From: Octadecabacter antarcticus 307 | GTDB lineage: Bacteria > Pseudomonadota > Alphaproteobacteria > Rhodobacterales > Rhodobacteraceae | Length of the DNA: 64,000 nt | Assembly (NCBI RefSeq): GCF_000155675.2 | Contig: NC_020911.1 | Coordinates: forward strand, 920,501 to 984,500 | Direction of reading: 5' to 3' | In this document: in pieces, positions 32,284 to 51,311 of the stretch | Layout: each line of letters starts with the position of its first letter | Numbering within the stretch: the first letter of the stretch is position 1 | Made by a program: the position numbers and the translations under genes | The notes under the pieces: model-generated | The model's database searches: none | Seen by the model: the letters and a program-made list of their open reading frames with translations, nothing else | Told to the model about the DNA's origin: nothing

Positions 32284-33378
32284 ATGTTAGATAATCAATC
32301 GGCGTTTGTGGCTTTCGAGCGGGTCCAGAAAAGTTATGATGGCGAGGTTCTTGTCGTTAAAGACCTCAACCTGTCGATGCCCAAGGGCGAGTTTTTGACA
32401 ATGCTTGGGCCATCGGGGTCGGGCAAGACGACCTGCCTTATGATGCTTGCAGGATTTGAAACCGCAACACACGGCGATATTTTGCTGGATGGTGTTTCGA
32501 TCAACAACATCCCGCCGCACAAGCGCGGTATCGGCATGGTGTTCCAGAACTACGCATTGTTCCCGCATATGACGGTGGCAGAAAACCTGTCCTTCCCGTT
32601 GGAAGTCCGAAAGATTGGTAAATCTGAACGTGAAGAAAAAGTCATGCGCGCATTGGGCATGGTACAGATGCAGGATTTTGCAGGGCGGCGTCCGGCGCAA
32701 TTGTCCGGCGGTCAACAGCAGCGGATCGCGTTATCGCGTGCGTTGGTGTTTGAACCCGAACTTGTTTTGATGGACGAACCCCTTGGTGCGCTTGATAAGC
32801 AACTGCGCGAAACTTTGCAGTTTGAAATTACCAATCTGGCACATGAACTCGGCATTACGACCGTTTACGTGACCCATGACCAGACAGAAGCGCTGACAAT
32901 GTCGGATCGCGTCGCAGTGTTCGACGATGGCCGTATTCAGCAATTGGCGGCGCCGGATGAATTGTACGAGAAGCCGCAGAACAGTTTTGTTGCGCAGTTT
33001 ATCGGTGAAAACAACACGCTGGATGGTGTCGTGCAGGAGATCATAGGCGATACCTGTATCGTGAAGCTCGACAGCGGTGACATTATTGATGCCGTTCCGG
33101 TCAACGTTAAAGCAGTTGGTGAGCGCACGCAGGTGTCGATCCGCCCCGAACGTGTTGAATTCGATCGTTCGCGGCTGCATGACGATGCACATACGCTGAA
33201 GGCTGAAGTGCTTGAGTTTATCTATATGGGCGATATCTTTAGGACTCGCCTGCGGGTCGCAGGCAAGGATGATTTCGTGATTAAAACGCGCAACGCGCCG
33301 GATCAAAGACGACTGAAACCCGGTGAGATGATCGAAATTGGTTGGCTCGCACAAGATTGCAGGGCGCTCGACGCGTAA
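32284..33378 (+). CDS. ABC transporter ATP-binding protein, PotA type
   Basis: Cytoplasmic ATPase of 364 residues for the importer made with the next three genes. Walker A is GPSGSGKT, Q-loop is FQNYALFPHMT, the signature is LSGGQQQR, Walker B is LVLMDEPLGALD, and the switch is VTHDQTEAL. A C-terminal TOBE domain runs from about 245. The class imports polyamines or related cations. AGGGG lies ten bases before the ATG. Because creatinase lies immediately upstream, the substrate could be creatine or another guanidino compound; this is inferred from position only. Confidence 0.93.
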   Translation: MLDNQSAFVAFERVQKSYDGEVLVVKDLNLSMPKGEFLTMLGPSGSGKTTCLMMLAGFETATHGDILLDGVSINNIPPHKRGIGMVFQNYALFPHMTVAENLSFPLEVRKIGKSEREEKVMRALGMVQMQDFAGRRPAQLSGGQQQRIALSRALVFEPELVLMDEPLGALDKQLRETLQFEITNLAHELGITTVYVTHDQTEALTMSDRVAVFDDGRIQQLAAPDELYEKPQNSFVAQFIGENNTLDGVVQEIIGDTCIVKLDSGDIIDAVPVNVKAVGERTQVSIRPERVEFDRSRLHDDAHTLKAEVLEFIYMGDIFRTRLRVAGKDDFVIKTRNAPDQRRLKPGEMIEIGWLAQDCRALDA

Positions 33379-33465
33379 AGTCTCGCCTAAAAGGAAACAG
33401 CGCGGCGGTCGCCCGGACAATCGCGCTGAAAGAACCAAATCCGGGCAAACCAATGGGAGACTTCA

Positions 33466-34572
33466 ATGAAAACGACTATGAAACTGATGGCGACCACATG
33501 CCTGACGCTGTCCGCTACACTCGCGGCTGCTGACGGTCATATGGCCGATGAGATGACCATCGTTAGCTGGGGTGGCGCATACTCCTCCTCACAAGAAAAT
33601 GCCTATCATATTCCATATGCTGAAATGACTGGCGTTACGATTATCAACGACGCATCTTCTGCAGAAGCAGTTGCGAAACTTCGTGCGATGAGCGAAGCTG
33701 GTAACATCACATGGGACGTGGTTGATGTGGTTGCATCCGATGCGATCCGTCTTTGCGACGAGGGCCTTGCGCTGGAAATCGACTTCGACACTCAGCTTGC
33801 TGTTGGCGATGATGGTTCCACCGCGACCGAAGACTTTGGCGACCTGCTGGTGTCTGATTGCTTCATCCCGCAGATTGTTTATTCGACAACTGTCGGCTAT
33901 CGCACTGACCTCGTCGGTGACACACCGCCAACAGACATCTGCGCGATCTTTGACACAGAAACATACCCAGGCATGCGTTCGCTGGAAAAGCGTCCGATCA
34001 ACAACATGGAATGGGCATTGCTTTGTGACGGCGTAGCCAAGGCTGACGTGTATGACGTTTTGGAAACAGATGAAGGTCAGACACAGGCATTTGCCAAGCT
34101 CGACACCATCAAGGACAGCGTGATCTGGTGGTCCGCTGGTGCAGATACGCCACAGCTTTTGGCTGACGGCGAAATCATCATGGGCTCCACCTACAACGGT
34201 CGCCTATTTTCTTTGATCGAAGAGCAGGGCCAGCCGGTCGCAATGCTTTGGGACGCGCAAGTGTTTGACCTTGACGGTTGGATCATTCCAACTGGCTTGT
34301 CACCAGAGCGTGAAGCACGTGCGCTGGACTATGTTTATTTTGCGACGGACACGCAGCGTTTGGCTGATCAAGCCAAGTACATCAGCTATGGTCCAGCACG
34401 TGCATCTTCGGCACCGCTGGTCGGTCAGCACGCGACACTGGGTATCGATATGGCGCCACATATGCCAACTGATCCGGCGAACGCGACCAACACGTTCTTG
34501 TATAACTACACATGGTGGGCTGACTACCGTGACGATCTGGACGCGAAATTCCAGGTTTGGTTGTCGCAGTAA
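33466..34572 (+). CDS. ABC transporter substrate-binding protein, PotD-like
   Basis: Periplasmic binding protein of 368 residues. Signal peptide of about 22 residues (MKTTMKLMATTC, hydrophobic core, AAADGH). The mature part begins EMTIVSWGGAYSSSQENAYH, typical of PotD-like proteins, and has WSAGADTPQLLADGEIIMGS and YNGRLFSLIEEQGQPV in the second lobe, then a tyrosine- and tryptophan-rich end. GGGAG precedes the ATG. Located between the ATPase and permease genes and followed by a hairpin. Confidence 0.92.
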   Translation: MKTTMKLMATTCLTLSATLAAADGHMADEMTIVSWGGAYSSSQENAYHIPYAEMTGVTIINDASSAEAVAKLRAMSEAGNITWDVVDVVASDAIRLCDEGLALEIDFDTQLAVGDDGSTATEDFGDLLVSDCFIPQIVYSTTVGYRTDLVGDTPPTDICAIFDTETYPGMRSLEKRPINNMEWALLCDGVAKADVYDVLETDEGQTQAFAKLDTIKDSVIWWSAGADTPQLLADGEIIMGSTYNGRLFSLIEEQGQPVAMLWDAQVFDLDGWIIPTGLSPEREARALDYVYFATDTQRLADQAKYISYGPARASSAPLVGQHATLGIDMAPHMPTDPANATNTFLYNYTWWADYRDDLDAKFQVWLSQ

Positions 34573-34582
34573 CAACGATCTT

Positions 34583-34615
34583 TGGGGCGCGGCACTGCTG
34601 CGCCCCATCATTTTT
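34583..34615 (+). terminator. Hairpin with T run after the Pot-type binding protein gene
   Basis: Stem TGGGGCGC/GCGCCCCA with a 9-base loop, then ATCATTTTT. It lies ten bases after the stop and before the permease genes, so partial termination would favour the binding protein. Confidence 0.75.
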
Positions 34616-34634
34616 CTGAACAGGGGTGGCACAC

Positions 34635-36290
34635 GTGACATTGGTTTTGGCAGCAGACGGACGACCGCTTAAGGCGTCACTGAACCGCGCATTACGCCGC
34701 CAGAAACTGCGTGCGCTGATGCTAATTGCCCCACTTTTGATCTTTATTATGGTGTCCTTTGTGATGCCAATCGCGGACATGCTGTTCCGGTCTGTTGAAA
34801 ACGAGATCGTCGTTGAAACGCTGCCGCGCACGGTCGCCACCCTTGATGGGTGGGACAGTGAATCAGGGCAAGCCCCCAGTGAGGACGTTTTTGCCGCGCT
34901 TTATTTCGATTTGGTTCTGGCGACTGAATATAAGACCCACACGCGTTTGGGCAGCCGTTTAAACTACGAAATGTCGGGTATTTCGTCCCTGTTTCGTAAA
35001 TCTGGTCGCGGCGTTGGCCGTTTTACCACTGACACCTACACGGACGCAATTCAGGCGGCTGATCTGGCCTATAGTGATCCAGCACAATGGGCCGTCTGGA
35101 TGGCCGATGACGATGTGCGCGCCGCCTTGCCGATGACCGCAAATATCTATGATGCTTGGGCGACGATGATTATCGTGGCCGAAGAAGACGTGCCCGCTGA
35201 GGAAGTGCCGTGGGATTTCGTCTACACGTCGCTGTTCCTCGAAGTAATGGAAGGTGCTGAACCACCAATTGCGCTGGATCTGTCCGCTGTGGCCCCAGTG
35301 TCACTACGCGACCAGTTTGCCGATGTCGACGAAGACTGGCTCGATCCCGTGGTCTGGCAGATCGTAAAAATCTACTCCCCCGAATACACAAACGGATATT
35401 TTCTCAATTCCGTTGACCGACTTAAAGGGCTAGACGGCATCGAAGTGCGCCCTGAAAACGAGCAGATCTATATCACGCTGTTCATCCGCACGATGATCAT
35501 GTCGGGATCAATCATGGGCATGTGTGTCCTGCTCGGCTACCCGATCGCGTGGCTGCTCGCGAATTTGCCAGCTCGCAAAGCCAACATGCTGATGATTCTT
35601 GTGCTTTTGCCATTCTGGACATCGCTGTTGGTGCGCACATCCGCATGGAAAGTACTGCTGCAACGGCAGGGCGTGATCAACGACACGTTGGTTTGGTATC
35701 ATTCGACCTGGTTCGGCCAATTACTCGACCCCGTCTTTATGGGACTGCTGAATCTATGCTACGCTTTGGTCAATGCCATCACTTGGGTTTGGAATCTGAT
35801 CAATGGGATCTGGGGCGGAACGGATGGCTTGTATCTGGATTGGGCCGTCGCTGGCTTTGAACGCCTTGCGTTGATCAACAACCAAACGGGTACCATCATT
35901 GCAATGACGCATATTCTGTTGCCGTTTATGATCTTGCCACTGTTTTCGGTGATGAAGACAATCCCGATTGCCTACTTGCGGGCCGCGAAGTCGCTTGGTG
36001 CCACGAACTGGACCGCGTTCTGGCGGGTCTACTTCCCGCAGTCGGTGCCAGGCATCGGTGCTGGCTGCATCCTCGTGTTTATTCTGTCGATTGGCTATTA
36101 TATCACGCCTGAATTGGTTGGCGGCACCAAGGGTGTCTTTATCTCCAACCGGATTGCCTTCCATATCTCCAGTTCGCTTAACTGGGGCCTTGCGGCCGCG
36201 TTGGGTACCATTCTGCTGGTGGTCGTGATGGGGCTGTACTGGATGTACGACAAGATCGTTGGCATCGATAACGTGAAATTGGGGGGCTGA
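34635..36290 (+). CDS. ABC transporter permease, PotB-like, with long periplasmic insert
   Basis: Inner-membrane permease of about 551 residues, roughly 250 more than usual PotB proteins. The first membrane segment is at about residues 28-50. The next 220 or so residues are hydrophilic (including ETLPRTVATLDGWDSE and FEVMEGAEPP-like LEVMEGAEPPIALD) and should lie outside. The transporter core then follows with five hydrophobic segments and the coupling loop AAKSLGATNWTAFWRVYFPQ. The GTG at 34635, with AGGGGTGG upstream, was preferred over GTG 34626. It pairs with the next gene, three bases away. Confidence 0.9.
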   Translation: MTLVLAADGRPLKASLNRALRRQKLRALMLIAPLLIFIMVSFVMPIADMLFRSVENEIVVETLPRTVATLDGWDSESGQAPSEDVFAALYFDLVLATEYKTHTRLGSRLNYEMSGISSLFRKSGRGVGRFTTDTYTDAIQAADLAYSDPAQWAVWMADDDVRAALPMTANIYDAWATMIIVAEEDVPAEEVPWDFVYTSLFLEVMEGAEPPIALDLSAVAPVSLRDQFADVDEDWLDPVVWQIVKIYSPEYTNGYFLNSVDRLKGLDGIEVRPENEQIYITLFIRTMIMSGSIMGMCVLLGYPIAWLLANLPARKANMLMILVLLPFWTSLLVRTSAWKVLLQRQGVINDTLVWYHSTWFGQLLDPVFMGLLNLCYALVNAITWVWNLINGIWGGTDGLYLDWAVAGFERLALINNQTGTIIAMTHILLPFMILPLFSVMKTIPIAYLRAAKSLGATNWTAFWRVYFPQSVPGIGAGCILVFILSIGYYITPELVGGTKGVFISNRIAFHISSSLNWGLAAALGTILLVVVMGLYWMYDKIVGIDNVKLGG

Positions 36291-36293
36291 GAC

Positions 36294-37187
36294 ATGTCTG
36301 CATTGCCATCATATGCGACCAGGGGCCAACGGTTCTGGTATTACAGTTTCCGCGTCATTTGCGGGTTTATCTTTTTCTTCCTGATCGCGCCGATCATTGT
36401 GATTATTCCGTTGTCATTTAACGCGCAGAACTTCTTTACGTTCACGCCGGAAATGCTGGCTTTGGACCCGGCGGGTTTTTCGACCAAACACTATCAGGAT
36501 TTCTTTACCGATTCAGACTGGCAGTTGGCGCTGCGAAATTCGCTTAAGATTGCGCCGGTGGCAACGTTCCTGTCAGTGTCGCTGGGAACTTTGGCGGCCA
36601 TTGGTCTATCCCAAAGTCATGTTCCGTTTCGCCGCCTGATCATGGCGATCCTGATTTCGCCGATGATTGTACCACTGATTATCTCTGCGACAGGCATGTT
36701 TTTCTTCTATTCTAACCCCTACATCCCGACGCCTTTTGGCAGAATTGATCTGCCGTTCACGCTGACGGGTACCTATTTGGGCGTGGTTCTGGCGCATGCG
36801 GCGCTGGGTATTCCATTCGTCATCATCACTGTGACCGCGACGCTGGTTGGCTTTGATCAGTCCCTGACGCGGGCCGCGGCGAACATGGGCGCGAACCCTG
36901 TTACAACGTTCTTTAAGGTGCAGATGCCGCTAATTTTGCCCGGCGTGGTGTCGGGTGGCCTGTTCGCCTTTATCACGTCATTTGATGAAGTCGTGGTCGT
37001 TCTGTTCGTCGGTTCTGCTGCACAAAAAACACTGCCATGGCAGATGTTCACAGGCCTTCGCGAGCAAATCAGCCCGACCATTCTGGCGGTGGCGACGATC
37101 CTTATCGCGGTGTCTATCGTGCTGCTGATCGTGGTGGAAATGCTGCGTCGTCGCTCTGAGAGGTTGCGCGGCCTGTCCCCTAGCTAA
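36294..37187 (+). CDS. ABC transporter permease, PotC-like
   Basis: Inner-membrane permease of 297 residues with six hydrophobic segments, the normal size. The coupling loop is AAANMGANPVTTFFKVQMPL. An N-terminal stretch precedes the first membrane helix at about residues 20-42. A periplasmic loop follows with FFTFTPEMLALDPAGFSTKH. It forms the membrane part of the importer with the preceding permease. Last gene of the operon; a terminator follows. Confidence 0.94.
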   Translation: MSALPSYATRGQRFWYYSFRVICGFIFFFLIAPIIVIIPLSFNAQNFFTFTPEMLALDPAGFSTKHYQDFFTDSDWQLALRNSLKIAPVATFLSVSLGTLAAIGLSQSHVPFRRLIMAILISPMIVPLIISATGMFFFYSNPYIPTPFGRIDLPFTLTGTYLGVVLAHAALGIPFVIITVTATLVGFDQSLTRAAANMGANPVTTFFKVQMPLILPGVVSGGLFAFITSFDEVVVVLFVGSAAQKTLPWQMFTGLREQISPTILAVATILIAVSIVLLIVVEMLRRRSERLRGLSPS

Positions 37188-37423: not shown

Positions 37424-39065
37424 ATGACATTTAAACAAAAAACCTCTTACCTCGACAGCGGCATTCCTGATTGCGACAGGTGGTGCCGTGTTGGCTGACG
37501 GCCACGCGACGCAGCCAGATACGGGCCTAGCGCTCGCGTCTGATTAGTCGTTCACCTACTCCATCTTGGATGATTATCCGTCCATTGACCCTGCTTTGGT
37601 TGAAGACGTCGAAGGCGCGTCCGTTGCCCGTGACCTGTTCGAAGGCCTGATGACCGAAGACGCCACCGGCAACATGCAGCCCGGGGTTGCAACGAGCTTT
37701 GAGATGTCTGAGGATGGCATGACCTATACGTTTACGCTGCGTGAAAATGCCAAGTGGTCGAACGGTGATCCGGTTGTCGCGGGTGATTTCGTCTAAGGCC
37801 TGCAACGCGCCGCTGATCCGGCTACGGCATCGGAATATGCGTGGTACCTCGAAGTTATGGGCGTCGAGAATGCTGCCGCTGTGACCGCTGGCGATATGTC
37901 ATTGGACGCGCTGGGTATTTCGGCACCTGACGATTTTACGGTGGTCTATACAATCGACGCGCCGTGTCCGTATTTCCCGCAAATGACGACGTTCCCGACG
38001 ACTTTCCCGCAGCACCGAGCCACGATCGAAGCGCATGGCGATCAGTGGACCCGCGCGGGAAATATGGTGTCCAACGGTTCTTATGTGCTGGCTGAATACG
38101 TACCGGCAGAAAAGCTCGTGCGGTCGCGCAATGCGATGTGCTGGGACAATGACAATACCATCATCGAAGAGATCACGGCACCGATCATCAACGATTCCAA
38201 TCAGGCGCTCACATGCTATTTGACGGGTGAAGTCGATGTTGTGATGGACGTGCCAGCCGGTCAGTTCCCACGTCTTAGTGCCCAATACCCCGGTGAGGCG
38301 CTGAGCCTGCCGTCGTCGTGCACCTATTACTATCAGTTCAATCAGTCCGAAAGTGGTCCAGAGGCCCTGAAAGATGCGCGCGTGCGGCAAGCGCTGAGCC
38401 TTGCAGTAAACCGTGATATCATCACCGACAACGTGCTGGCGGGTGGTCAACGACCATCGTGGACACTGACCCACTGGGCGATTGGCGGCTTGTGACAGCC
38501 TGAGATTGCGGCGCAAGCCATGACCCAAGACGAGCGCAACGCCATGGCGGTCGCGCTGATGGCTGAAGCAGGTTACGGGACTGACAACCCATTGACGGTT
38601 GAGGTTATCTACAACACGTCCGACGGCCACCAATCCGTGGCCGTTGCGATTGGTCTGATGTGGAAGCCAACCTTGGGCGTCAAAGTGACATTGGCCAACC
38701 AAGAATGGGCCACGTTCCTGACCACACGTGGTGAGCAAAACTACGAAATTGCGCGCTCAGGCTGGTGTGCCGTTTACAATGAACCGTCCACCTACACGGA
38801 CCTTCTGACATCTGTATCTGCCTATAACGACGGCAAATCCGTCAATACTGAAATCGACGCCTTGGCGCAAGAAGCGAGGTTCGCGCAAGACGCCATGCCG
38901 CTCTATCGTCAGATGGAACAGATCGCGTCGGACAACGCTTACCTCCTGCCGATATACCAATACGCGTCCGTGCGGATGATCGCGTCCAATTTGGAAAACT
39001 GGCCAACAGAAAACTTGTTGCAGAACTGGTATTTCAAAGACCTATATATCAGCGCGCCCGAATAA
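37424..39065 (+). pseudogene. Oligopeptide-type ABC substrate-binding protein (OppA/DppA family), broken
   Basis: Remains of a periplasmic solute-binding protein of family 5, about 545 codons. From ATG 37424 a one-base change in the A run near 37437-37442 shifts the frame; after it the signal peptide (LIATGGAVLADGH) reads normally. The same frame then runs to TAA 39063-39065 but is cut by TAG 37545, TAA 37794 and TGA 38493. Family blocks remain: YSILDDYPSIDPALVEDVEG, FTLRENAKWSNGDPVVAGDF, AEYVPAEKLV, and VRQALSLAVNRDIITDNVLAGG. First gene of a five-gene operon in which all are broken. Confidence 0.93.
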
Positions 39066-39086
39066 CGTTTCGATCGTCTAGAAAAG

Positions 39087-39115
39087 CCCTCGCGCTGCCA
39101 TTGTGGTAGCGCGGG
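39087..39115 (+). terminator. Intra-operon hairpin after the dead oppA-like gene
   Basis: CCCTCGCGCTGCCA pairs with TGGTAGCGCGGG around TTG. It occupies the same place as the hairpins after the other two binding-protein genes of this window, at 5911 and 34583. Confidence 0.55.
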
Positions 39116-39133
39116 ACCTTGCCAAGGACACCT

Positions 39134-40121
39134 GTGTATAGCTTCATTGCAAAACGGCTTGCGGTCGCGGTGCCGACCCTGCTCATCCTCGTTATTTTCT
39201 AGTTTATCCTGATGTTCGCGGCCCTCGGTGGCCCGTTCAGCGGTGAACGCCCGCCTCCTGCGGCGGTGCTGGCCAACATCGAAGCCCGCTACGGCCTTGA
39301 TCAGCCCTACATCGTGCAGATATTCAACTACGACAAAACGTCGTATTTTATTTCGATTTTGGCCCGTCATTTCAATACCGCGACCGCACTGTGAACGATG
39401 TGATCGCCCAAGGCTTTCCCGTAACATTGACCTATGGCGCATGGTGGCCACTGGTGGCTGTGGTTGTCGGTGTCTCACTTGGTGTAGCGGCGGCGATCCG
39501 CCAGAACACGTGGCTAGACTACTTGGCAGTTGGTATCACCATCGGTGCACAGGCTTTGCCGAACTTCGTTATGGCGCCTGTGTTGGTGTTGGTGTTCACG
39601 CTTGGCCTTGGCTGGTTGCCTGGTGGTGGATGGTCTGGTGGTCTGCTGATTGATGCGTGCGAAGCAGGGGATCGGTTATGTTTCAATAATCCGTTCGGGG
39701 GGCCGTGCGGTTTGATTATCTGATCCTACCCGTCATCGCGCTGTCCACGTCCTACATGGCGTCCATCGCATGGATCACGCGATCTTCGATGCTTGAGGTG
39801 ATAAATTCCAAACTTATCCGCACAGCCATGGCCAAAGGTCTGCCCATGCGTCGCGTTATTTTCCGCCATGCTTTAAAGCCTGCGTTGCTGCCGGTGATCT
39901 CCTACCTTGGCCCTGCGGTCGTGGGGATGATCACCGGATCGGTCGTGGTTGATGTGGCGTTTTCCACTGGTGGTATCGGGCAGTTCTTTGTGAATTCCGC
40001 GTTCAACCGTGACTACGCCGTCATTATGGGCATCACCATTCTGGTCGGTGCGTTGACGATCCTGTTCAACCTTCTGGTCGATGTGCTTTACGCATGGATC
40101 GATCCGAAAATCCGCTACTGA
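39134..40121 (+). pseudogene. Oligopeptide-type ABC permease (OppB/DppB family), broken
   Basis: From a GTG at 39134 the reading gives a normal OppB start (FIAKRLAVAVPTLLILVIF), then TAG at 39200. The frame continues with MFAALGGPFSGERPPPAAVL and LDQPYIVQIFNY, then shifts by one base near 39330 (restored reading FDFGPSFQYRDRTVNDVIAQ). A further shift lies at about 39650-39705. The conserved end is intact: YLILPVIALSTSYMASIAWI, AMAKGLPMRRVIFRHALKPA (coupling loop) and DVLYAWIDPKIRY. Confidence 0.92.
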
Positions 40122-40132
40122 GGGAGGCTGCG

Positions 40133-41047
40133 ATGATTACGCAAACTGACGTGAAAATGCTGGAAGAAACCGCCCACCTCGCGCAGGTTCGGGGCCGATC
40201 ATTGTGGGAAGACGCCCGCGTCCGGTTCTTTCGCAACAAGGCCGCCGTTGCGGAGTTGTTCGTGCTGATCGCCATCTGCGCCTTTGCGTTGTTTGGCGGG
40301 TTATTTGCCAAGTTTGAACCAGACTATGTGGACTTCAGCCTGATGGGGGCAAACGCCTATCAGGGCGTTCCGTCGTTCGAGTCTGGGCATTACTTTGGCA
40401 CTGACATTGATGGGCGCGATCTGTTTGCGCGCACCGTACAGGGCACGTCGATTTCGCTTCTCGTGGGGATCGCTGGTCGCGGTGGTCGTTGGCACGCTTT
40501 ACGGCGCGTCGGCGGGATAAATCGGTGGGCGCACGGATGGCATCATGATGCGGATCGTCGATATCTTGATGTCGATCCCGTTCAGTTTGTGCTGATCCTG
40601 ATGCTGGTGATCTTCGCGCGGTCTATTTTGATGCTGATCATCGGCATCGGTCTGATCTCATGGCTCAATATAGCACGGATCGCGCGGGGGCAGATCTTGA
40701 CGATCAAGAACAAGGAATTCGTCGAAGCCGCGATTGCCACAGGCGTGTCGGCATTCACCATCATCCTGCGCAATATCATCCCAAACTTGCCGGGGATTTT
40801 GATCGTTTACGCGACGCTGCTGGTGCCGGAAATGATCATTTTTGAGAGCTCTATTTCCTACCTTTGCCTCGGCGTGCAAGAACCCAATACGTCGCTGGGT
40901 GCGCTGATCGAAGCAGGCGCGAGCCAGATGATTAACGGCACGCTTTAGATGCTGTTTTATCCGTTGGGTTTATTCCTCATCACGCTGTTCGCCTTCTTCT
41001 TTGTTGGCGACGGGCTGCGCGATGCACTTGATCCAAAGGACCGATAA
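40133..41047 (+). pseudogene. Oligopeptide-type ABC permease (OppC/DppC family), broken
   Basis: Starts at ATG 40133 (GGGAGG upstream). The N-terminal part reads well (SLWEDARVRFFRNKAAVAEL, HYFGTDIDGRDLFARTVQGT). Between about 40478 and 40585 the proper reading lies in another frame (VVVGTLYGASAG, then MMRIVDILMSIP), broken by TAA 40518-40520. The original frame resumes with FVLILMLVIFARS and the coupling region. A TAG at 40946-40948 cuts off the last 33 codons (FFFVGDGLRDALDPKDR). Confidence 0.92.
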
Positions 41048-41994
41048 ATGCTGCTAGATGTATCTGATCTGACGGTGACGTTTCGCACCAACGATGGCTC
41101 CGTGCATGCGGTGAACGGGCTCTCATTTACGATTGATGAACGCGAAACCCTAGCCATTGTTGGCGAAAGTGGGTCGAGCAAAAGCCAGACGGCGTTCGCC
41201 ATCATGGGGTTGTTGGCCAAGAACGGTGGCGCGACGGGTAAGGTGGTGTTTGACGGGACTGACCTGCTGGCGCTGACGCCACGCCAACTGAACAAGGTTC
41301 GTGCACAACAGATCGCGATGATCTTTCAGGATCTGATGACGTCGCTGAACTACTACATTTGCGTTAGCAACCAAATGGCAGAGGTTTTGCAGCTCCATAA
41401 GGGCATGAGCAAACGTGCAGCCGTGGCCGAAGCAGTCCACATGCTCGACGCGGTGCGCATTCCAGACGCCAAAACACGCATCAGCATGTATTCGCATGAA
41501 TTTTCCGGGGTATGCGCCAGCGGATCATGATTGCGATGGCGCTGCTGTGCCGCCCGCGTTTGCTGATCGCCTATGAACCGACGACCGCTTTGGACGTTAC
41601 GGTGCAGGCGCAGATCATGAAATTGCTGGCTGATATTCGCGACGAATTTGGAACTGCGATGGTCTTGATTACCCACGACCTTGGCATCGTTGCGGGTGCC
41701 TGTGATCGCACTTTAGTGCTTTATGGTGGGCAGATTATGGAACAGGGGCAGACGGATGACGTGTTTGAAACCCCGACGCATCCCTACACCAAGGGTCTGC
41801 TGCGCGCCGTGCCGCGCCTTGATCGAGATGATGACGAATTGCTGACCATCGCGGGGGAGCCACCAGACATGTCAGACCTACCCCAAGGCTGCCCGTTCTC
41901 ACCACGATGCGAGATCGCGAAAGACATCTGCGTTACAACCAAACCCGCAAAAGAACCGTTTGGCGACGATCGTTTGCGCGCCTGCCACCGTTAA
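41048..41994 (+). pseudogene. Oligopeptide-type ABC ATPase (OppD/DppD family), frameshifted
   Basis: Begins at ATG 41048, one base after the previous stop. Walker A reads GESGSSKS; the usual glycine before lysine is serine. The frame shifts near 41508-41515, inside the signature (HEFSG, then MRQRIMIAMALLC in the new frame), removing the LSGGMRQR continuity. Walker B LLIAYEPTTALD also departs from the usual DEPTTALD. The C-terminal oligopeptide zinc-like block FSPRCEIAKDIC and the end are readable. Confidence 0.92.
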
Positions 41995-42885
41995 AATTAC
42001 AAGCGGTTTCCGGCCTTAACATCGATCTGCAACCTGGTGAAACGCTGGGTCTTGTAGGCGAAAGTGGGTCGGCAAAATCCACGCTCGCCCGCGCGATTAT
42101 CGCACGGTTCCGGTGTTGGGCGGCGATATTTTGTACAAAGGCCAAAGCCTGATGGCGATGGAGCGACAAGAACGCCGCAAGCATCGCCACGATGTGCAGA
42201 TGGTCTTTCAAGACCCGCTCGCGGCGTCGAACCCGCGCATGACCGTGGGTTCGACGCCGAACCCTTGGTGACGCATGAACCTGAACCCCCGCGCAAAGAC
42301 GTCAAGGCGCGTGTCGGCGAATTGATGGAACGGGTCGGGCTGCTTTCCAAACTGATAAACCGCTACCCGCATGAATTTTCTGGCGGGCAATGCCAGAGAA
42401 TCGGGATTGCGCGTGCGTTAATCCTGAAGCCGAAGCTGATGATTTGCGATGAACAGGTATCGGCGCTGGATGTGTCGGTGCAAGCGCAGGTCGTAAACCT
42501 GCTGACCGAACTCCAAAAAGACATGGGGCTTTCGAAGATTTTCATCGCCCACGACCTGTCCGTGGTGAAACATATCTCTGATCGTATTGTGGTGATGTAT
42601 CTGGGTCTCCCGATGGAAATTGGCCCCTCCAAGGCCGTCACGCGTGCCCCCACGCACCCCTATACTTAGGCGTTGATCGCATCTGTGCCAATCCCTGACC
42701 CCAAGGCAGAACGCGCCCGCGTCCGACCCATTCTTGAAGGTGATTTACCCAGTGCGCTGGCGCCACCATCAGGGTGCGTGTTCCGCACACTCTGTCCAAA
42801 AGTGCAAGCCGTGTGCGCCAGTGATCGCCCTGTCATGGAACCCAGCGGCCCGGATCAAATGGCCGCCTGTCCGTTCCATGGATAG
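41995..42885 (+). pseudogene. Oligopeptide-type ABC ATPase (OppF/DppF family), truncated and frameshifted
   Basis: The reading begins abruptly at KLQAVSGLNIDLQPGETLGL; the usual N-terminal 35-45 residues and start codon are missing, so the junction with the previous gene seems deleted. Walker A reads GESGSAKST, with alanine for glycine. Shifts lie near 42108 and 42245-42255. The signature ([17 protein letters not shown]) and Walker B region ([14 protein letters not shown], with Q for P) remain. A TAG at 42667-42669 interrupts, and the frame continues to the natural stop at 42885 with a cysteine-containing tail. Confidence 0.92.
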
Positions 42886-42888
42886 ACG

Positions 42889-45800
42889 TCAGTAGTCGCG
42901 TTCAAAGAAAATTCCGACGCTGGTATCACCAACAGATGCTACGGACCCACGCGCGGTAAAATTCCGATCAATGTCTATGTTCAAGTTGATTTCGGATGTG
43001 CCATTCGACCCGATCGTGACATCTGTGTACACGTTTTCTGACAGATACTTGCCAGCGCGAACGCCTGCATTGCCGTCCTCATCGGTCACAAAATCCAGAT
43101 CGTCAAGATCGAGGCCCTCGCGCAGGTTTGCAACAACGCCACCGCCACCATTGCCTGCCAATGTCGCCACTGCGGACGCCAGTTGCACAGCCTGAAGCGG
43201 TGAGATTGACGATATGTCACGACCGAACAGCAGCTGCGCCAACACTTCATCTTGCGGCAAGTCAGGGACACTTTCGAACCGCACGTCGATGCTATCGGCG
43301 GGGCCTTCGGCAATGATACTGACCACGGTGCCTGTGCGGGCTTGTGTGGTTGCGACAAAGCGCAAAAACGGCGTGAAATCGCCTTGGAGTTGGGCATAAC
43401 CTTCGTCGAGATCGAACCACTGGCCCAGAATGCTCAAGCGGCCACGAACAAGATCGAACCGCCCGATGGGAACGAGCGCGTTCAGACTTCCGGTGAGGCG
43501 AAGCTGTCCACCGAGTTCGGCGTCCAGCCCGCGACCACGTACAAAGATACGCGATGGCACGCGGATTAACAGATTGATCGGGTAGTCAGGACCAGCGCGA
43601 GTTTGCCGTTCAGTCGATGGCGTCACGCCGACGCCTGCGCGATCAAGGGTGGCACGTATATCCATGCGTGGGCCAAGGTGCGTGACCTGTGGTAGGCTGC
43701 CAAGCGCGCTGACACCTGTTGATGGCACCTGAACTTCGACCGCGCCGAGATTGATTGTGCCTGCGATTGCAGCACCACCTGTAAGGGGCCCGTTTACGGT
43801 CACTTGGCCATTTGCTGTTGCGCGATAAAGCGTTGGATCACGCAGCACGACATCGCCTAGCTGTGCCGTCAGCGCCACCTGAAACGGTGGTGATAGATCT
43901 ACTGGTCCGGTCAGCGCTACGGTTCCGCCTTCTGCACTGGTGCCTTGAATATCTAGACGAACCGTCCCCCCAGTGAGTACGATTGTGCCGTTAATGTCTT
44001 CAACAGCTTGCTGCAGGTTTGGCGCAGCCAATCGCGCATCGCTGATTGTTACCGGGCCGCGAACCGAGGACAGATTAGCAGGACCGTTTACCGAAAGATC
44101 AAACCGTGCGAGGCCGTTGATTTGGCGTGGTGCAATATAAAGATTGGCGAGGGCCAGTGGCGCGGACCCTGTGACCGACATGTCCATCTGACCAGCGCTG
44201 GATATGCGTCCTGTTGCCCGTGCTGCCGTGCCCAAGGGTCCGGTTGCGTCCCCGGTGACCGTCCAGCCAGTGCCGTCTTGGCGGGCGGTTATTTCAGCCA
44301 CCAGCGGGCCCGAAAAATCTGATACCAGTATCGCAATATCGCGTAGCCGGACGGACAGACTGGCCACCGCGTCCGATCCCGAGGTGGCAACCGTGCCGCC
44401 AGCCGTCAGGTTCGGGAAAACCACGTCAATGGCGTCAAGACGCAGGCGTCCCGCCTCAGAGAGGCTGACATCCGCATCGATCCGACCCAGTCCTGCCAAC
44501 ATACGATCAAGTGCGGGCGATCCTGCACGCAGATTTTGGGCCCGTGCCGTGACATCGGCGTTCATTGCACTCGTGGTCGTGGTGAACGTGCCATCTAGAG
44601 CAACTGAAAGACCGCCGCCAATCTGTTGCCCGACCAGATCGCTGTAAGCGCTGAGTTCATCCACCGCGATCGCCGCTTGGGCGCGGACACTATAACCACC
44701 CTCAATCGGGGAGGCGATGCCTTGCGCTGTGGCTTCGGCCCGCGGCGCGTTCACGCCAGCGTCCAGCGTGATAACGCCCTGCACATCGGTTTGCACATCA
44801 GCCGTCAGGATGGCAGGGCCAGACAGGGATGGCGTCATAAGGTTTAGATCAGTGATCTGCGCGGTGAAATTCGCGCTGGTGGCTTGCGACGTGATTTCAG
44901 CGCTGCCCGTTGCCAGTACCGCATCATTGCGCAGATCGATGCTGCGCAATCGTGTGCCGTCCGTGTCGCGTTCCACGCCCAGCGTCAGCGTGCTGGTGCC
45001 TGACAAAAGCGGGTCCGCTTGCGCGATCCCTACAGCAAGCCCATTGGTTTGCGCCGCGATTTCGAGGTTAAATATACCGTCAAAAGGTTGAACCGTTCCC
45101 GACAGGTCGACAGTGCCGCTACCAGCCAGATCGAGGCCGGTTAGGGCGGCAAAGCGGCTAAAATCGGTGGCATCGATCGAAATGCCAGCTTGGGTACGGA
45201 ACCGATCCTGTGGTCCATCAATCAACGCGGCGCCCTGTGCCGTGATGCCAGCACCGCTGAGCGTCAGGGCATTGACAATAAAGGGCCCCGCTTCGATGCG
45301 GCCAAAATCCAAGGTGCCCTCAACGTCTGATCCAATCGCTTCCGTCAGTCTCGCGTCCGCAAGTGCGAGGCCGCGCGCTGCATAGTTCAGATCAGCCGTA
45401 AACTGACCGAGTGTTCCCACCCCGCTTGGCACGATGATACCGCCACCAGACAGGGTCAGTGCATCAATTTCCAGTCCTTCGCGCACCAACGATGTGATAT
45501 CGAACGCACCCGTCCATGCGTCATCGTTTGCAGCGTCGTATTGCACGTTCAGGGACATGCCGCTGACTTCGGTTGATGCGCCACCAATGGGCAGCAACAC
45601 GCGGTCTGTGCCACCATTCCCAAGACGCCCGCGCAGATCAATCGCTTCTGGCCAGCCGTTCGCATCAATCCGCGCCGAACCGCGCAAGACCACCTGATCT
45701 GCTGCCACAATAAGATTGGACAGACGCAGCCCGCCCAGCCCGAATGAGGTTCCTTCGACCCGCAACAAAGTTGAGCCACCGAAAAACGCACCATATTGTT

Positions 45801-46644
45801 GCGCCAGCAGCGGGCGCAGATCGCCTTCTAGGTTCACATTGAAGGCCTGATCGATGCTACCGGACGGGCGCGACAGCTGCACGGTGCCAGTGACACGGTC
45901 CACGCCGTCCGTGGCTAAGCCGATATCGCCGACAAAGTTATCCAAAGGTGCGTCGCCCGCGATTTCAAGTTTCACGGAGGGACGATCAGGCAGGTCCAAC
46001 ATCCGCGCGGCAATACCGTTCTGACCTTCCTCGGCGAGCAGGAAAAGCGCCAGCTGGCGCGCCTCGTTTTCGTAGGCTGCATCGACGATAAAGCGTCCGA
46101 CCTTGTTATCGGTGCGTTCCAGTGTGAAATTGGTGCTGCCAACGCCGTCGCCCAGCGTTATGGCCCCCTCAAAACGCGCAGTCAAAGGCTCACCCAACAG
46201 GGCTTCGGTCAGAACAATTTCCGTTGCTGAAATTTCTGTAATGTCGACGGACACAGGCAGTTCGGGCAAACTGAAAGGCGTGGCTTCCGCCGCTGGCAAG
46301 TCGACCATGTAGGCGTTTGTGACGGGCAGGCGGATCAATTCAATCCGCCGCGCGCTGAGCTTGTCGATCTCGACACGACCCGATAGCAATGCGGATCGGT
46401 TCCAATCAATAATTAGCCCATCAAGGCGCAGCCAAATGCCGTCTGGATCGGCAATCGTGATGGCATCTGCCGTCGCCGCTGCACTGAGCGCGCCCTGAAA
46501 ATTGATCAAACGGACCGTTAAATCGTCGTTGTTAATGGTGTCTTCGATCAAGCCCGTGATGAAATCACGGTCGTCTTCTTTGCTTTGTGCGGCAGCAAAG
46601 CTAGCCCACATCACCAACAGGAGCGTCAGGAACAGGCGCGTCAA
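42889..46644 (-). CDS. tamB: Translocation and assembly module subunit TamB
   Basis: Very large periplasm-spanning protein of 1251 residues, near the E. coli TamB length of 1259. The N-terminus has a hydrophobic signal-anchor (LFLTLLLVMWASFAAAQ). The long middle has repeated beta-rich stretches (AsmA-like/beta-taco). The C-terminal DUF490 domain includes GRFDLVRGRLSILGQWFDLD and YAQLQGDFTPFLRFVATTQA, and the end NFTARGSVASVGDTSVGIFF with a terminal aromatic. It links the inner membrane to TamA and helps place outer-membrane proteins or move lipids. It overlaps the tamA stop by four bases and ends three bases from the dead oppF-like gene, convergent. Confidence 0.95.
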   Translation of the reverse strand: MTRLFLTLLLVMWASFAAAQSKEDDRDFITGLIEDTINNDDLTVRLINFQGALSAAATADAITIADPDGIWLRLDGLIIDWNRSALLSGRVEIDKLSARRIELIRLPVTNAYMVDLPAAEATPFSLPELPVSVDITEISATEIVLTEALLGEPLTARFEGAITLGDGVGSTNFTLERTDNKVGRFIVDAAYENEARQLALFLLAEEGQNGIAARMLDLPDRPSVKLEIAGDAPLDNFVGDIGLATDGVDRVTGTVQLSRPSGSIDQAFNVNLEGDLRPLLAQQYGAFFGGSTLLRVEGTSFGLGGLRLSNLIVAADQVVLRGSARIDANGWPEAIDLRGRLGNGGTDRVLLPIGGASTEVSGMSLNVQYDAANDDAWTGAFDITSLVREGLEIDALTLSGGGIIVPSGVGTLGQFTADLNYAARGLALADARLTEAIGSDVEGTLDFGRIEAGPFIVNALTLSGAGITAQGAALIDGPQDRFRTQAGISIDATDFSRFAALTGLDLAGSGTVDLSGTVQPFDGIFNLEIAAQTNGLAVGIAQADPLLSGTSTLTLGVERDTDGTRLRSIDLRNDAVLATGSAEITSQATSANFTAQITDLNLMTPSLSGPAILTADVQTDVQGVITLDAGVNAPRAEATAQGIASPIEGGYSVRAQAAIAVDELSAYSDLVGQQIGGGLSVALDGTFTTTTSAMNADVTARAQNLRAGSPALDRMLAGLGRIDADVSLSEAGRLRLDAIDVVFPNLTAGGTVATSGSDAVASLSVRLRDIAILVSDFSGPLVAEITARQDGTGWTVTGDATGPLGTAARATGRISSAGQMDMSVTGSAPLALANLYIAPRQINGLARFDLSVNGPANLSSVRGPVTISDARLAAPNLQQAVEDINGTIVLTGGTVRLDIQGTSAEGGTVALTGPVDLSPPFQVALTAQLGDVVLRDPTLYRATANGQVTVNGPLTGGAAIAGTINLGAVEVQVPSTGVSALGSLPQVTHLGPRMDIRATLDRAGVGVTPSTERQTRAGPDYPINLLIRVPSRIFVRGRGLDAELGGQLRLTGSLNALVPIGRFDLVRGRLSILGQWFDLDEGYAQLQGDFTPFLRFVATTQARTGTVVSIIAEGPADSIDVRFESVPDLPQDEVLAQLLFGRDISSISPLQAVQLASAVATLAGNGGGGVVANLREGLDLDDLDFVTDEDGNAGVRAGKYLSENVYTDVTIGSNGTSEINLNIDIDRNFTARGSVASVGDTSVGIFFERDY

Positions 46645-48422
46645 AACGACTGCCCGATGCCGATATAGACCTCAATCTGCTTGCCGGCATCGTCGCCTGT
46701 CATGGGCGTTGCCATGTCAAGTCGGATCGGGCCGATACCCGTGTTATAGCGCAATCCAAGGCCTGCACCTGCGTGCCAATCGCCATTCTCAAACGGGACG
46801 GCATCGGCGCCGACGAAACCCGTGTCGTAAAACCCGACGACGCCAATGGTATCGGTGACATCGACGCGCGCCTCAAATTGTGCGCCGAAAAACGAGGTGC
46901 CGCCAATTTCATTGCCGCCGCCCAAATCCACCGAGAGCGATTGGTAAGGTTGCCCGCGTACCGTGCCACCGCCACCGGAATAGAACAGGTAGCTGGCGGG
47001 CACATCCGCTGCATCTGCACCAAGGATCGACCCGATTTGGCCGCGCAAGGCAAACGTGACGCGGCCGTTTTGCCCAAAGCTGCGATAAATCCGACCATCA
47101 CCGAAAATGCGCGCGCCGCTATCGGCACCATTCAGACCCAAAAACGGTGTAACCAATAGATTGGCGTAATAGCCAGAGGTCGGATCAAGTACGTTGGTGC
47201 GCTGATCAATTGTGCCTTCTAGGGGGGCATAAATCAGGCTGTAAGTTCGGTCGCCCAATGCGTCAGACACTTCGCCCACGGCATATCCAAACCCGTATTC
47301 CAAAATTACGTCGTCATAAATGCGTCGGATAATTCCGACCTCAACGCGTGCGTCGCGCTCAAAGAACGACGGTTCATCCAGCTGGGCGATATTTGCAATG
47401 ATATAAAGGTCGGTGTCTTGGCGAAACGTTGCGGGGCGCAAGTATGCGGCACCGAGACTGTAGTCGGTCCCAGCCGTGCCGCTAGATAGCCCCGCAATTT
47501 CACCGTCAACACGGAACCGTTCCGCGCCGCCAAGCAGGTTGCGATGCAACCAATAACCCGACAACGTCAATCCAGACACAGTGGAAAATTCTACACCCGC
47601 GCCAATTCTGCGTGGTATTTGTTCGACAACCGCGATGGTCATCGGCAGGGTGCTACCCTCAGGCGCTTCGCCTTCGATAATTGTGGCCGATGTGAACGCA
47701 CCGGTGCGGCGCAAGTTGGCCTCAGCGCGCAGAATATCGGCAGGATCAAAGGTCCTGCCACGCAAGCCTGCTATCGCCAGAATACGTTCGGTGCGCACGG
47801 CGACATTTCCTGTCACCACAACTTCACCAAAGCTAAGTTCCGGTCCAGGTGCGATGATAATCGACACATCGAGTTTTTCGTCCAAGTGGCGGGCGGTGAT
47901 CGTTTGCCCGTCGGTTTGCGCCAAAGGGCGTCCCGCGTTGCGCCAGCCAACGACTGCAGCGCTCGCGGCGTCACTGATATCATCCGAACTGGCGGTGTTT
48001 CCGGTTGCGAAGGCGCCTGGCAAATGCGTGCCGCGCGCCAATGGTTCGATGTCGGCGCGCCCGAATGTGAACTGCGGACCTGGTGTGACGGACAACACGA
48101 CGGTTTCAACCGTGTTGCGCGGGACCAGCGGGTCAATCCCCGCAGCTTCGATTCCGTCAATCAGAATGGATATCGTACCGCCGTAAAACCCTTCTGCATA
48201 AAGCCCTGTCAGCAGACGGCGATAGTCTGCCCGCGCAGCAGCGACGTAATCCTGCGGCGCGTCATCACCATCGCGTTCAAGCGCCAATGTCAGGGACGCG
48301 GCGGTCAAAACCGTTTGCAATTCTTCATCTGCTTGTGGCGCGTCCAAACGTACATCTTGCGATGAAGACCCCGACGGGAATATCCATGACATCAAAGCCA
48401 AAATAGGTATTATTTTGCGCAT
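46641..48422 (-). CDS. tamA: Outer membrane protein TamA (BamA/Omp85 superfamily)
   Basis: About 593 residues. Signal peptide (IIPILALMSWIFPSGSSSQD). POTRA domains occupy about residues 30-250, including FTFGRADIEPLARG and LSFGEVVVTGNVAVRTERIL. A 16-stranded Omp85 barrel follows with VEFSTVSGLTLSGYWLHRNL, and the lid/loop-6 type motif is VRGQPYQSLSVDLGG. The protein ends in an aromatic residue (IGIGQSF). The ATG at 48422, with GGTGAG upstream, was preferred over the open frame to 48473. Operon tamA-tamB. Confidence 0.94.
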   Translation of the reverse strand: MRKIIPILALMSWIFPSGSSSQDVRLDAPQADEELQTVLTAASLTLALERDGDDAPQDYVAAARADYRRLLTGLYAEGFYGGTISILIDGIEAAGIDPLVPRNTVETVVLSVTPGPQFTFGRADIEPLARGTHLPGAFATGNTASSDDISDAASAAVVGWRNAGRPLAQTDGQTITARHLDEKLDVSIIIAPGPELSFGEVVVTGNVAVRTERILAIAGLRGRTFDPADILRAEANLRRTGAFTSATIIEGEAPEGSTLPMTIAVVEQIPRRIGAGVEFSTVSGLTLSGYWLHRNLLGGAERFRVDGEIAGLSSGTAGTDYSLGAAYLRPATFRQDTDLYIIANIAQLDEPSFFERDARVEVGIIRRIYDDVILEYGFGYAVGEVSDALGDRTYSLIYAPLEGTIDQRTNVLDPTSGYYANLLVTPFLGLNGADSGARIFGDGRIYRSFGQNGRVTFALRGQIGSILGADAADVPASYLFYSGGGGTVRGQPYQSLSVDLGGGNEIGGTSFFGAQFEARVDVTDTIGVVGFYDTGFVGADAVPFENGDWHAGAGLGLRYNTGIGPIRLDMATPMTGDDAGKQIEVYIGIGQSF

Positions 48423-48558
48423 GTTCGTCTGCTCACCAAACATCTTTTCATGTTGATACCAAACAAGACGCATAGACGAAACGTAAAAGGCTGCTTAATC
48501 GTTCCATTGGCGATCACGAATTGTGGCGTTTTCGAAACTGGTAGGACAAGGTGCGCAC

Positions 48559-49664: not shown

Positions 49665-51311
49665 ATGTTAGATCAAAACGTCGCCCCGCCACAGATGTCC
49701 CTTCGCACCCCAGACGTGGTGATGCGGTTGCGGCGTATGGGGGCGTCGTTCCCGACACGATTGTCGTTTCTCCGTGTCCTTTTGCGCCGCCTGTCCGCTG
49801 AAAAGGCGCATATTACGCGGCCCGTTTGGGCCATGGATAGCGACGGGTTCGGGCATGCGGTTTATTCCGTAACGTTCGGGGGGCATGTCTATTCTCTGGT
49901 CGCAGTGTCGACAGATTTGCCGCCCGAACTGCGCACCGACCGCGTGATCGCGTCTGCTTGGGACACGGCGTATGTGTTGTATGACGGTGTGCCAAGTGGC
50001 GATGAAATCGCGCGCATCGTGGCGACGGCGCCCTTGCAAGAAGCGGCGCGGTTCACGGTGCGTGATCTTGTGCTTAGCCGCGCCAATAAATCCGTGCGCC
50101 TATTCGCCCACACGGTTGAACGACTGCGGGCAGGGGGCCAGCCGGACGCTGGCTTGGTTCGCTCAATCGGATATTTGATGCGCACCACAGCCGTTTATGG
50201 CAACGGAAAGTTTGGCATCGCGGATCGCGATGTGTTCGCCACACGTGATAGCATGGGGGGGCCGTTTATGGCTGAAATGTTGACGGTCTGGTTGATCCGT
50301 GGCTTCACCCATGATTTGGTCGAACATGTCGGCGGTGCGCCGCTTGACGCGCATCTGAAACGGCATCTGGGGATCGGCAATTCAACCGGGCTGGGGATGG
50401 CGCCATTTTTGGTATCGCACCCGATGTTGTTAAACGCATGGATCACGTCGCGCGAAACTGCATTGGCGCGGGTGCGTGCGATTGAAACGCTGGAGGCTGC
50501 GCAGGTTGGGGTTATCTATAAATTGGTCGCACGCGCTGCACAGCATTTGGCAGAATGGCAGGTCCCTGATGATATCGGGCAGCAACGGATAGATCAGATG
50601 CGCCGCGAATGGCCACAACTGGCCGCGCTGATGACGCCAGACGTCATGGCGGGACGGATGCCGTTGGATCGGTTGTGGCTGGCATCGGCGACGTTTTCGA
50701 TCGACACGCAAGAATGCCTTGCGGCGTTGATGATCGAACCGTTCGGGGGTCTGGTGGATGATCTGTGCGTCACCATGGCCACCCAAAAATGTGTAACGCT
50801 TGATCCGTCGATGCCCTGCGCAGAATTGCAGGCGCTGATTGCACGTGATTGGGCTTGGGCGATGGGTGATTACGAAATCCCTGAGGCGTGCCACCAATTT
50901 TGGTATGTGTCTGAGGCAAAGGCCGAGCCGCGTCTTGGGTTGCGCCACGAAGAAGACGGTGCTGCACTGGAAAGCCCGCTCGATATCGCCCGTCAGGTCG
51001 CGTGTTTGGCGCAGGATTTGCAGGGCGGTGGCAGCGTTGCTGCGCTGTTGGCGCGCCACCCCGAACATCGTGCCGCTGTGCGGCGTGTCCAGTCGCTTGA
51101 TCGCGCGCCCTACGCTGAAATTCGCGACAACCTGATCGGGCAGGATTGCCTGCCGATTGATATGTTGCGCTGCAAATTGGGGTTCTTTGGCGCTGCCAAG
51201 TTTGATCCCAAGTCGGACCGTTGGACACGGATTACGCTGTGCCAAGGCGCACCCTTGCGCGATGAATTGGGGGACGCCGACGACTGGTGGCTGCCCACGT
51301 TCGACGCATGA
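49665..51311 (+). CDS. Conserved protein of unknown function, 548 residues
   Basis: No domain was recognised. No signal peptide or clear membrane segment, so probably cytoplasmic. It contains basic N-terminal RLRRMGASFPTRLSFLRVLL, a stretch GGPFMAEMLTVWLIRGFTHD, and a tryptophan-rich end (DDWWLPTFDA). A ribosome site (AGGATG) stands five bases before the ATG. The stop overlaps the start of the DUF3726 gene (ATGA), which suggests the two proteins work together. The M19-like gene lies 122 bases upstream on the same strand. Confidence 0.85.
   Translation: MLDQNVAPPQMSLRTPDVVMRLRRMGASFPTRLSFLRVLLRRLSAEKAHITRPVWAMDSDGFGHAVYSVTFGGHVYSLVAVSTDLPPELRTDRVIASAWDTAYVLYDGVPSGDEIARIVATAPLQEAARFTVRDLVLSRANKSVRLFAHTVERLRAGGQPDAGLVRSIGYLMRTTAVYGNGKFGIADRDVFATRDSMGGPFMAEMLTVWLIRGFTHDLVEHVGGAPLDAHLKRHLGIGNSTGLGMAPFLVSHPMLLNAWITSRETALARVRAIETLEAAQVGVIYKLVARAAQHLAEWQVPDDIGQQRIDQMRREWPQLAALMTPDVMAGRMPLDRLWLASATFSIDTQECLAALMIEPFGGLVDDLCVTMATQKCVTLDPSMPCAELQALIARDWAWAMGDYEIPEACHQFWYVSEAKAEPRLGLRHEEDGAALESPLDIARQVACLAQDLQGGGSVAALLARHPEHRAAVRRVQSLDRAPYAEIRDNLIGQDCLPIDMLRCKLGFFGAAKFDPKSDRWTRITLCQGAPLRDELGDADDWWLPTFDA

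Follow-up and report, generated by a model that had tools for sequence, protein, structure and literature searches.

The stretch of DNA analysed here (the window) is 64,000 nucleotides long and covers positions 920501-984500 of the 4,812,600-base chromosome of Octadecabacter antarcticus 307, whose genome totals 4,875,481 bases in two contigs. At window positions 37424-42885 it carries the remnant of a five-gene operon for an OppABCDF oligopeptide importer, the gene order A-B-C-D-F being established by Pfam matches of pieces of the window. Judging from its sequence, the ancestral system is an OppABCDF-type oligopeptide ATP-binding cassette (ABC) importer, comprising an SBP_bac_5 protein nearest to OppA/MppA, two BPD_transp_1 permeases and two oligo_HPY ATPases. 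The features of the remnant are as follows.

37424..39065, + strand: oppA pseudogene, oligopeptide-binding protein, SBP_bac_5 (Pfam PF00496, codon alignment)
39134..40121, + strand: oppB pseudogene, permease (PF00528, BPD_transp_1)
40133..41047, + strand: oppC pseudogene, permease (PF00528 and PF12911, OppC_N)
41048..41994, + strand: oppD pseudogene, ATPase (PF00005 and PF08352, oligo_HPY)
41987..41988, no strand: junction of a 104-nucleotide deletion, oppD joined to oppF (alignment with the intact operon)
41988..42885, + strand: oppF pseudogene, ATPase (PF00005 and PF08352, oligo_HPY)

Damage to the five genes

Lesions were called in the reading frame of the intact operon of the metagenome-assembled genome (MAG) Hybrid_5 (Octadecabacter sp., locus L026), in an alignment with five relatives. 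There are seven in-frame stops and nine indels (eight deletions and one insertion; six of the nine are of a single base) in the window copy, and all five genes are hit. An earlier sequence-only reading of this DNA had reported a TAG, a TAA and a TGA in oppA, a TAG and frameshifts in oppB, and two frameshifts and a TAG in oppF, all of which are confirmed by the alignment. The stops of oppA lie at 37545 (TAG), 37794 (TAA) and 38493 (TGA), besides one inserted nucleotide near 37436; oppB has a stop at 39200 (TAG) and one-nucleotide deletions near 39334 and 39698, and its ATG start has become GTG; oppF has a one-nucleotide deletion near 42101, a four-nucleotide deletion near 42250 and a stop at 42667 (TAG). 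The TAA and TAG reported for oppC are also present (40518 and 40946, respectively), but two deletions, of eight nucleotides near 40469 and of one nucleotide near 40584, had been overlooked. For oppD, the single internal frameshift is a one-nucleotide deletion near 41508, at the signature motif, to which the loss of the native end of the gene has to be added. This end disappeared in the 104-nucleotide deletion at 41987, which took the last 31 nucleotides of oppD and the first 81 nucleotides of oppF (27 codons, including the start); in the intact Hybrid_5 operon the two genes overlap by eight nucleotides. The start of oppF is lost, as had been claimed, but the missing part amounts to 27 codons and not to 35-45 residues. 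Two irregularities of the relatives were discounted as lesions, the frames concerned being full length: a stop at oppC codon 3 in O. arcticus 238 and Thalassorhabdomicrobium marinisediminis, and small indels at oppC starts or gene ends in T. marinisediminis, O. dasysiphoniae G9-8 and one Pseudooctadecabacter MAG. They fall before the oppC start used here (L026:14312) or on the edges of the alignment.

Missense changes have also reached functional sites. Where five relatives have the same residue, the window OppD carries G44S in Walker A and D176Y at the Walker B Asp, and OppF carries G56A in Walker A as well as P185Q. The Walker A glycine is changed in both ATPases, to Ser in oppD and to Ala in oppF, exactly as first read. 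An alteration of Walker B in both had been claimed too, which is correct for the Asp-to-Tyr change in oppD; in oppF the Asp and Glu are kept and only the following Pro is altered. In OppA, the residue replaced in D450V aligns with residue 419 of the OppA chain 1b05, and Asp419 of OppA anchors the amino group of the peptide. Counted over all positions at which five relatives agree, the window shows 76 changes (oppA 29, oppB 11, oppC 15, oppD 7, oppF 14), compared with 53 private changes of O. dasysiphoniae G9-8 in the same count (18, 9, 11, 10 and 5, respectively), though the O. dasysiphoniae lineage is more distant. With its stops and indels, G44S, D176Y, G56A and D450V, the window copy lacks what a functional importer needs, namely open frames together with an unaltered ligand site and unaltered Walker A and Walker B motifs, and a working peptide importer is probably not made in O. 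antarcticus 307.

Intact flanks and relaxed selection

Two groups of genes adjoining the opp operon were used as controls.

32284..37187, + strand: intact ABC operon upstream, with an ATPase with TOBE_2, an SBP_bac_8 binding protein and two permeases
42889..48473, - strand: intact tamB and tamA (Omp85) downstream, convergent with the opp operon

The Omp85 protein next to tamB is taken as tamA. All seven flanking genes are open, and their lengths equal those of the relatives' copies except for tamA (610 versus 593 amino acids, with a different start); the tamB copy of the Hybrid_5 MAG runs off its contig. The neighbours on both sides are clean, as the sequence-only reading had it; the polyamine (Pot) type of the upstream operon is a label of that reading, the domains found being TOBE_2 and SBP_bac_8, and we use pot below as a mere name. 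All 16 lesions fall within the 5,462 nucleotides of the opp operon and none within the 11,553 nucleotides of the seven flanking genes (p = 1.3e-8 if lesions were spread evenly over operon and flanks).

The opp operon lies between the pot operon and tamB in the Hybrid_5 MAG and in O. arcticus 238 alike, and open opp operons are found beside tamB in T. marinisediminis, O. dasysiphoniae G9-8 and one Pseudooctadecabacter MAG. The Hybrid_5 copy is lesion-free, so that the search for an intact copy in close relatives, proposed with the earlier reading, found an orthologue at the very same place, as expected for a unitary pseudogene. Between the window and Hybrid_5, synonymous divergence (dS) amounts to 0.51-0.66 in opp, 0.46-0.72 in pot and 0.63 in tamB; since dS of opp is like that of its neighbours, the operon was inherited vertically together with them. 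Both the shared position and dS contradict the idea that the operon was acquired by horizontal transfer in an already defunct state; no evidence in favour of such an arrival was found in this analysis, and we give it a negligible probability.

The pairwise ratio of nonsynonymous to synonymous divergence (dN/dS), which the sequence-only reading had recommended, is low (0.05-0.11). Taken alone it is blind to the loss, because most of the divergence is older than the loss, and changes were therefore counted branch by branch instead, polarised by Hybrid_5, O. arcticus 238 and outgroups, as nonsynonymous plus stop versus synonymous. The polarising filter (agreement of the outgroup majority) favours slow sites and inflates absolute ratios, and only contrasts made under the same filter are used. 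The opp genes have a ratio of 110:154 on the window branch and of 29:155 on the sister stem (odds ratio 3.8, Fisher p = 4e-9), and four of the five genes are individually significant (oppA p = 0.0006, oppC 0.007, oppD 0.02, oppF 0.005). No shift is seen in the same branch contrast for tamB (41:78 versus 22:58, p = 0.35) or tamA (24:29 versus 21:33, p = 0.56); a single-step 'stop' in the tamB count is an artefact of splitting a multi-base codon change, tamB being open over 1251 amino acids. Purifying selection on the window lineage is relaxed over the operon as a whole, though not significantly so in oppB taken alone.

These results also bear on the possibility that a working operon looks damaged through mistakes of sequencing or assembly. 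Such errors could be suspected from the share of indels, nine of the 16 lesions, with six of a single base; however, all seven stops, like the missense changes in the Walker A and Walker B motifs and at the ligand site, arose by substitution, every lesion is confined to the operon while the 11.6 kb of flanking genes are free of them, and the ratio of changes has shifted. Furthermore, the genome was Sanger-sequenced and finished; its description (Vollmers et al. 2013, PMC3646047) gives a chromosome of 4.8 Mb and a plasmid of 63 kb, together 4.88 Mb. We consider errors very improbable, and the clean neighbours and the shift in ratio support the earlier view of a real loss of selection. The opp genes of the window are thus very probably a unitary pseudogene operon, that is, a vertically inherited importer that lost its selective value and then decayed.

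Several observations weigh against this interpretation. The gene oppB shows no significant shift (12:35 versus 3:16, p = 0.52), and the five genes are heterogeneous in their shift (p = 0.03), so that selection may have been relaxed on some of them earlier than on others. On the window branch itself, the opp ratio is above that of tamB, but not significantly (p = 0.21), and the contrast hangs on the sister stem. The changes at conserved sites in oppD (7) are not above those of the O. dasysiphoniae control (10), and those in oppB are barely so (11 versus 9).

Measured against a neutral expectation, we estimate the time since the loss at about 0.17 (0.11-0.23) of the silent changes of the lineage with the observed mutational spectrum, and at 0.09 (0.06-0.13) with a flat spectrum. 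By these estimates the loss is fairly recent, well after the species split.

A strand bias was observed in the opp genes on the window branch: C-to-T changes affect 90 of 1158 C sites (7.8%) and G-to-A changes 49 of 1233 G sites (4.0%) of the coding strand (p = 1e-4). There is no such C-to-T bias in tamB (27 versus 34, p = 0.90).

The operon in related genomes

Among 19 genomes of the genus, eight have an OppA match at E 1e-100 and 11 have none at that threshold. Six of the eight have open genes throughout: Hybrid_5, T. marinisediminis, O. dasysiphoniae G9-8, two Pseudooctadecabacter MAGs and P. jejudonensis. One of these MAGs and P. jejudonensis were judged by open frames alone, without codon alignment, and in these two genomes oppD and oppF form a single long frame. 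The remaining two are the window, damaged in all five genes, and O. arcticus 238, damaged at two places. In the family, 114 of 395 genomes, drawn from a larger group, have an OppA match at E 1e-120, and 281 have none at that threshold. This search scores stops, not frameshifts, and only the OppA of the window contains any, the other 113 matches being stop-free; O. arcticus 238 is not among the matches shown. The best 120 of 2800 homologous proteins include no intact OppA that comes nearer to that of the window than those of O. arcticus and Hybrid_5; in this comparison, the O. arcticus protein cluster (90 member sequences) was taken as one cluster and not member by member.

The gene surroundings and sequences of these operons show some further differences. 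By eye, ureC-, ureF- and ureG-like genes stand directly before the opp operon in O. dasysiphoniae (L029 3504-8801), and likewise in a Pseudooctadecabacter MAG (L031 4151-9400, reverse complement). In oppB, near window position 39643, an in-frame stretch of 66 nucleotides is common to O. antarcticus, Hybrid_5 and O. arcticus and absent from T. marinisediminis, O. dasysiphoniae and one Pseudooctadecabacter MAG. Elsewhere in the window, a 548-amino-acid open frame at 49665-51311 has no Pfam match at E 0.001.

The damage in the Arctic species O. arcticus 238 is of a different kind. A frame of 324 amino acids for a transposase with an integrase core (rve) takes up most of the roughly 1.23-kb spacer that precedes oppA:

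O. arcticus 238, L027 12409-13383, - strand: rve transposase gene just upstream of oppA (Pfam)

The spacer matches that of Hybrid_5 to about position 165 and resumes nine nucleotides before the oppA start, about 60 nucleotides having gone. In addition, oppC has an in-frame TAG at codon 203, which corresponds to window position 40691, where the window still has Gln. Neither lesion is common to the window, and the Hybrid_5 MAG, the sister of O. arcticus 238, is lesion-free and 96.5% identical to it over the operon; the losses in O. arcticus and O. antarcticus are therefore separate. The opp ratio of O. arcticus exceeds that of Hybrid_5 (29:73 versus 7:44, p = 0.046) and is not clearly different from that of its own control genes (40:168, p = 0.081), both values being uncorrected for several tests. 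This is a weak sign of relaxed selection in O. arcticus, where the operon is presumably silent.

Separate damage in both polar species is suggestive of an adaptive loss in polar sea ice that took place independently at both poles, being far advanced in the Antarctic strain 307 and still at an early stage in the Arctic strain 238. The different lesions of O. arcticus, its intact sister and its raised ratio relative to Hybrid_5 agree with such a scenario, but the comparison with its own control genes does not, and the coincidence could well be due to chance at the reported rate of pseudogenes. According to PMC3646047, O. antarcticus 307 has 361 pseudogenes, about 20% of them without link to transposable elements, and mobile-element-free pseudogenes make up about 1.5% of genes. 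By our own arithmetic, a five-gene operon would at that rate be hit in a second species with a chance of about 7-8%, or more if insertions are counted. Moreover, the absence of OppA matches from many genomes of the genus and of the family indicates that the system is often dispensable. We regard an adaptive loss, for example because some imported peptides did harm or because the system was costly, as rather unlikely.

We favour decay after a loss of selective value. The ancestral OppABCDF would have imported oligopeptides and perhaps murein peptides too. Its selective value was very probably lost in the O. antarcticus lineage once this had diverged from that of O. arcticus and Hybrid_5. The genes then drifted and acquired stops and small deletions, as well as missense changes in the ligand-binding and ATP-binding sites and at other conserved positions. 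Drift was probably the main cause of the loss, in a genome where mobile elements and pseudogenes abound.

Other binding proteins and known systems

The genome of O. antarcticus has 12 SBP_bac_5 genes, of which only oppA contains stops. The 11 others are open, and one of the corresponding transporters might have buffered the loss through overlapping substrates. One protein, L040, matches the model of the oligopeptide-binding protein Opp4A at E 1e-42, yet scores 146 bits where the cut-off is 650. In a search restricted to the binding protein, no close intact copy of OppA exists among the 11: nine match it by blastp at E 1e-5 with at most 26.5% identity, and two give no match. The ten proteins covered by the profile scan (all but L049) include no match to OppA or MppA-like models at E 1e-40. 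Buffering by another transporter is unlikely, although substrates may overlap in part.

At this locus a complete transport operon of a marine bacterium is seen in decay, while one sister has kept an intact copy and a second is apparently at an early stage, and from these sisters the order and rate of operon decay can be studied. It also calls for caution in annotation: in strain 307, what is left of these genes should not be labelled as a working peptide importer.

Gene decay in Octadecabacter genomes has already been published, and the loss of this operon is an ordinary gene loss. Like the pseudogenes described for O. arcticus 238 and O. antarcticus 307 (PMC3646047), these are decayed genes amid many mobile elements. 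The words 'oligopeptide' and 'abc transport' have no occurrence in the main text of that paper, whose supplements, or GenBank record CP003740, may list the operon, and passages of the Octadecabacter literature on oligopeptide say nothing about it. Judging by titles, opp operons may also have decayed in other bacteria, mostly host-associated or dairy ones (Mycoplasma, Francisella, Lactococcus, Lactobacillus and others).

Among the NCBIfam matches shown for the Hybrid_5 proteins (for OppD the best 25 of 188 families and for OppF the best 25 of 190), OppB alone passes its cut-off (407 versus 388 bits); OppA (468 versus 947), OppC (384 versus 433), OppD (520 versus 575) and OppF (518 versus 540 bits) remain below. 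The best solved-structure matches of the Hybrid_5 OppA are the murein peptide-binding chain 3o9p (E 7e-124) and the oligopeptide-binding protein 1b05 (E 2e-121), both over residues 33-542. The system thus resembles enterobacterial OppABCDF and MppA in its binding protein and has the same domains and the same gene order A-B-C-D-F as enterobacterial OppABCDF, from which the window copy differs in being broken in every gene.

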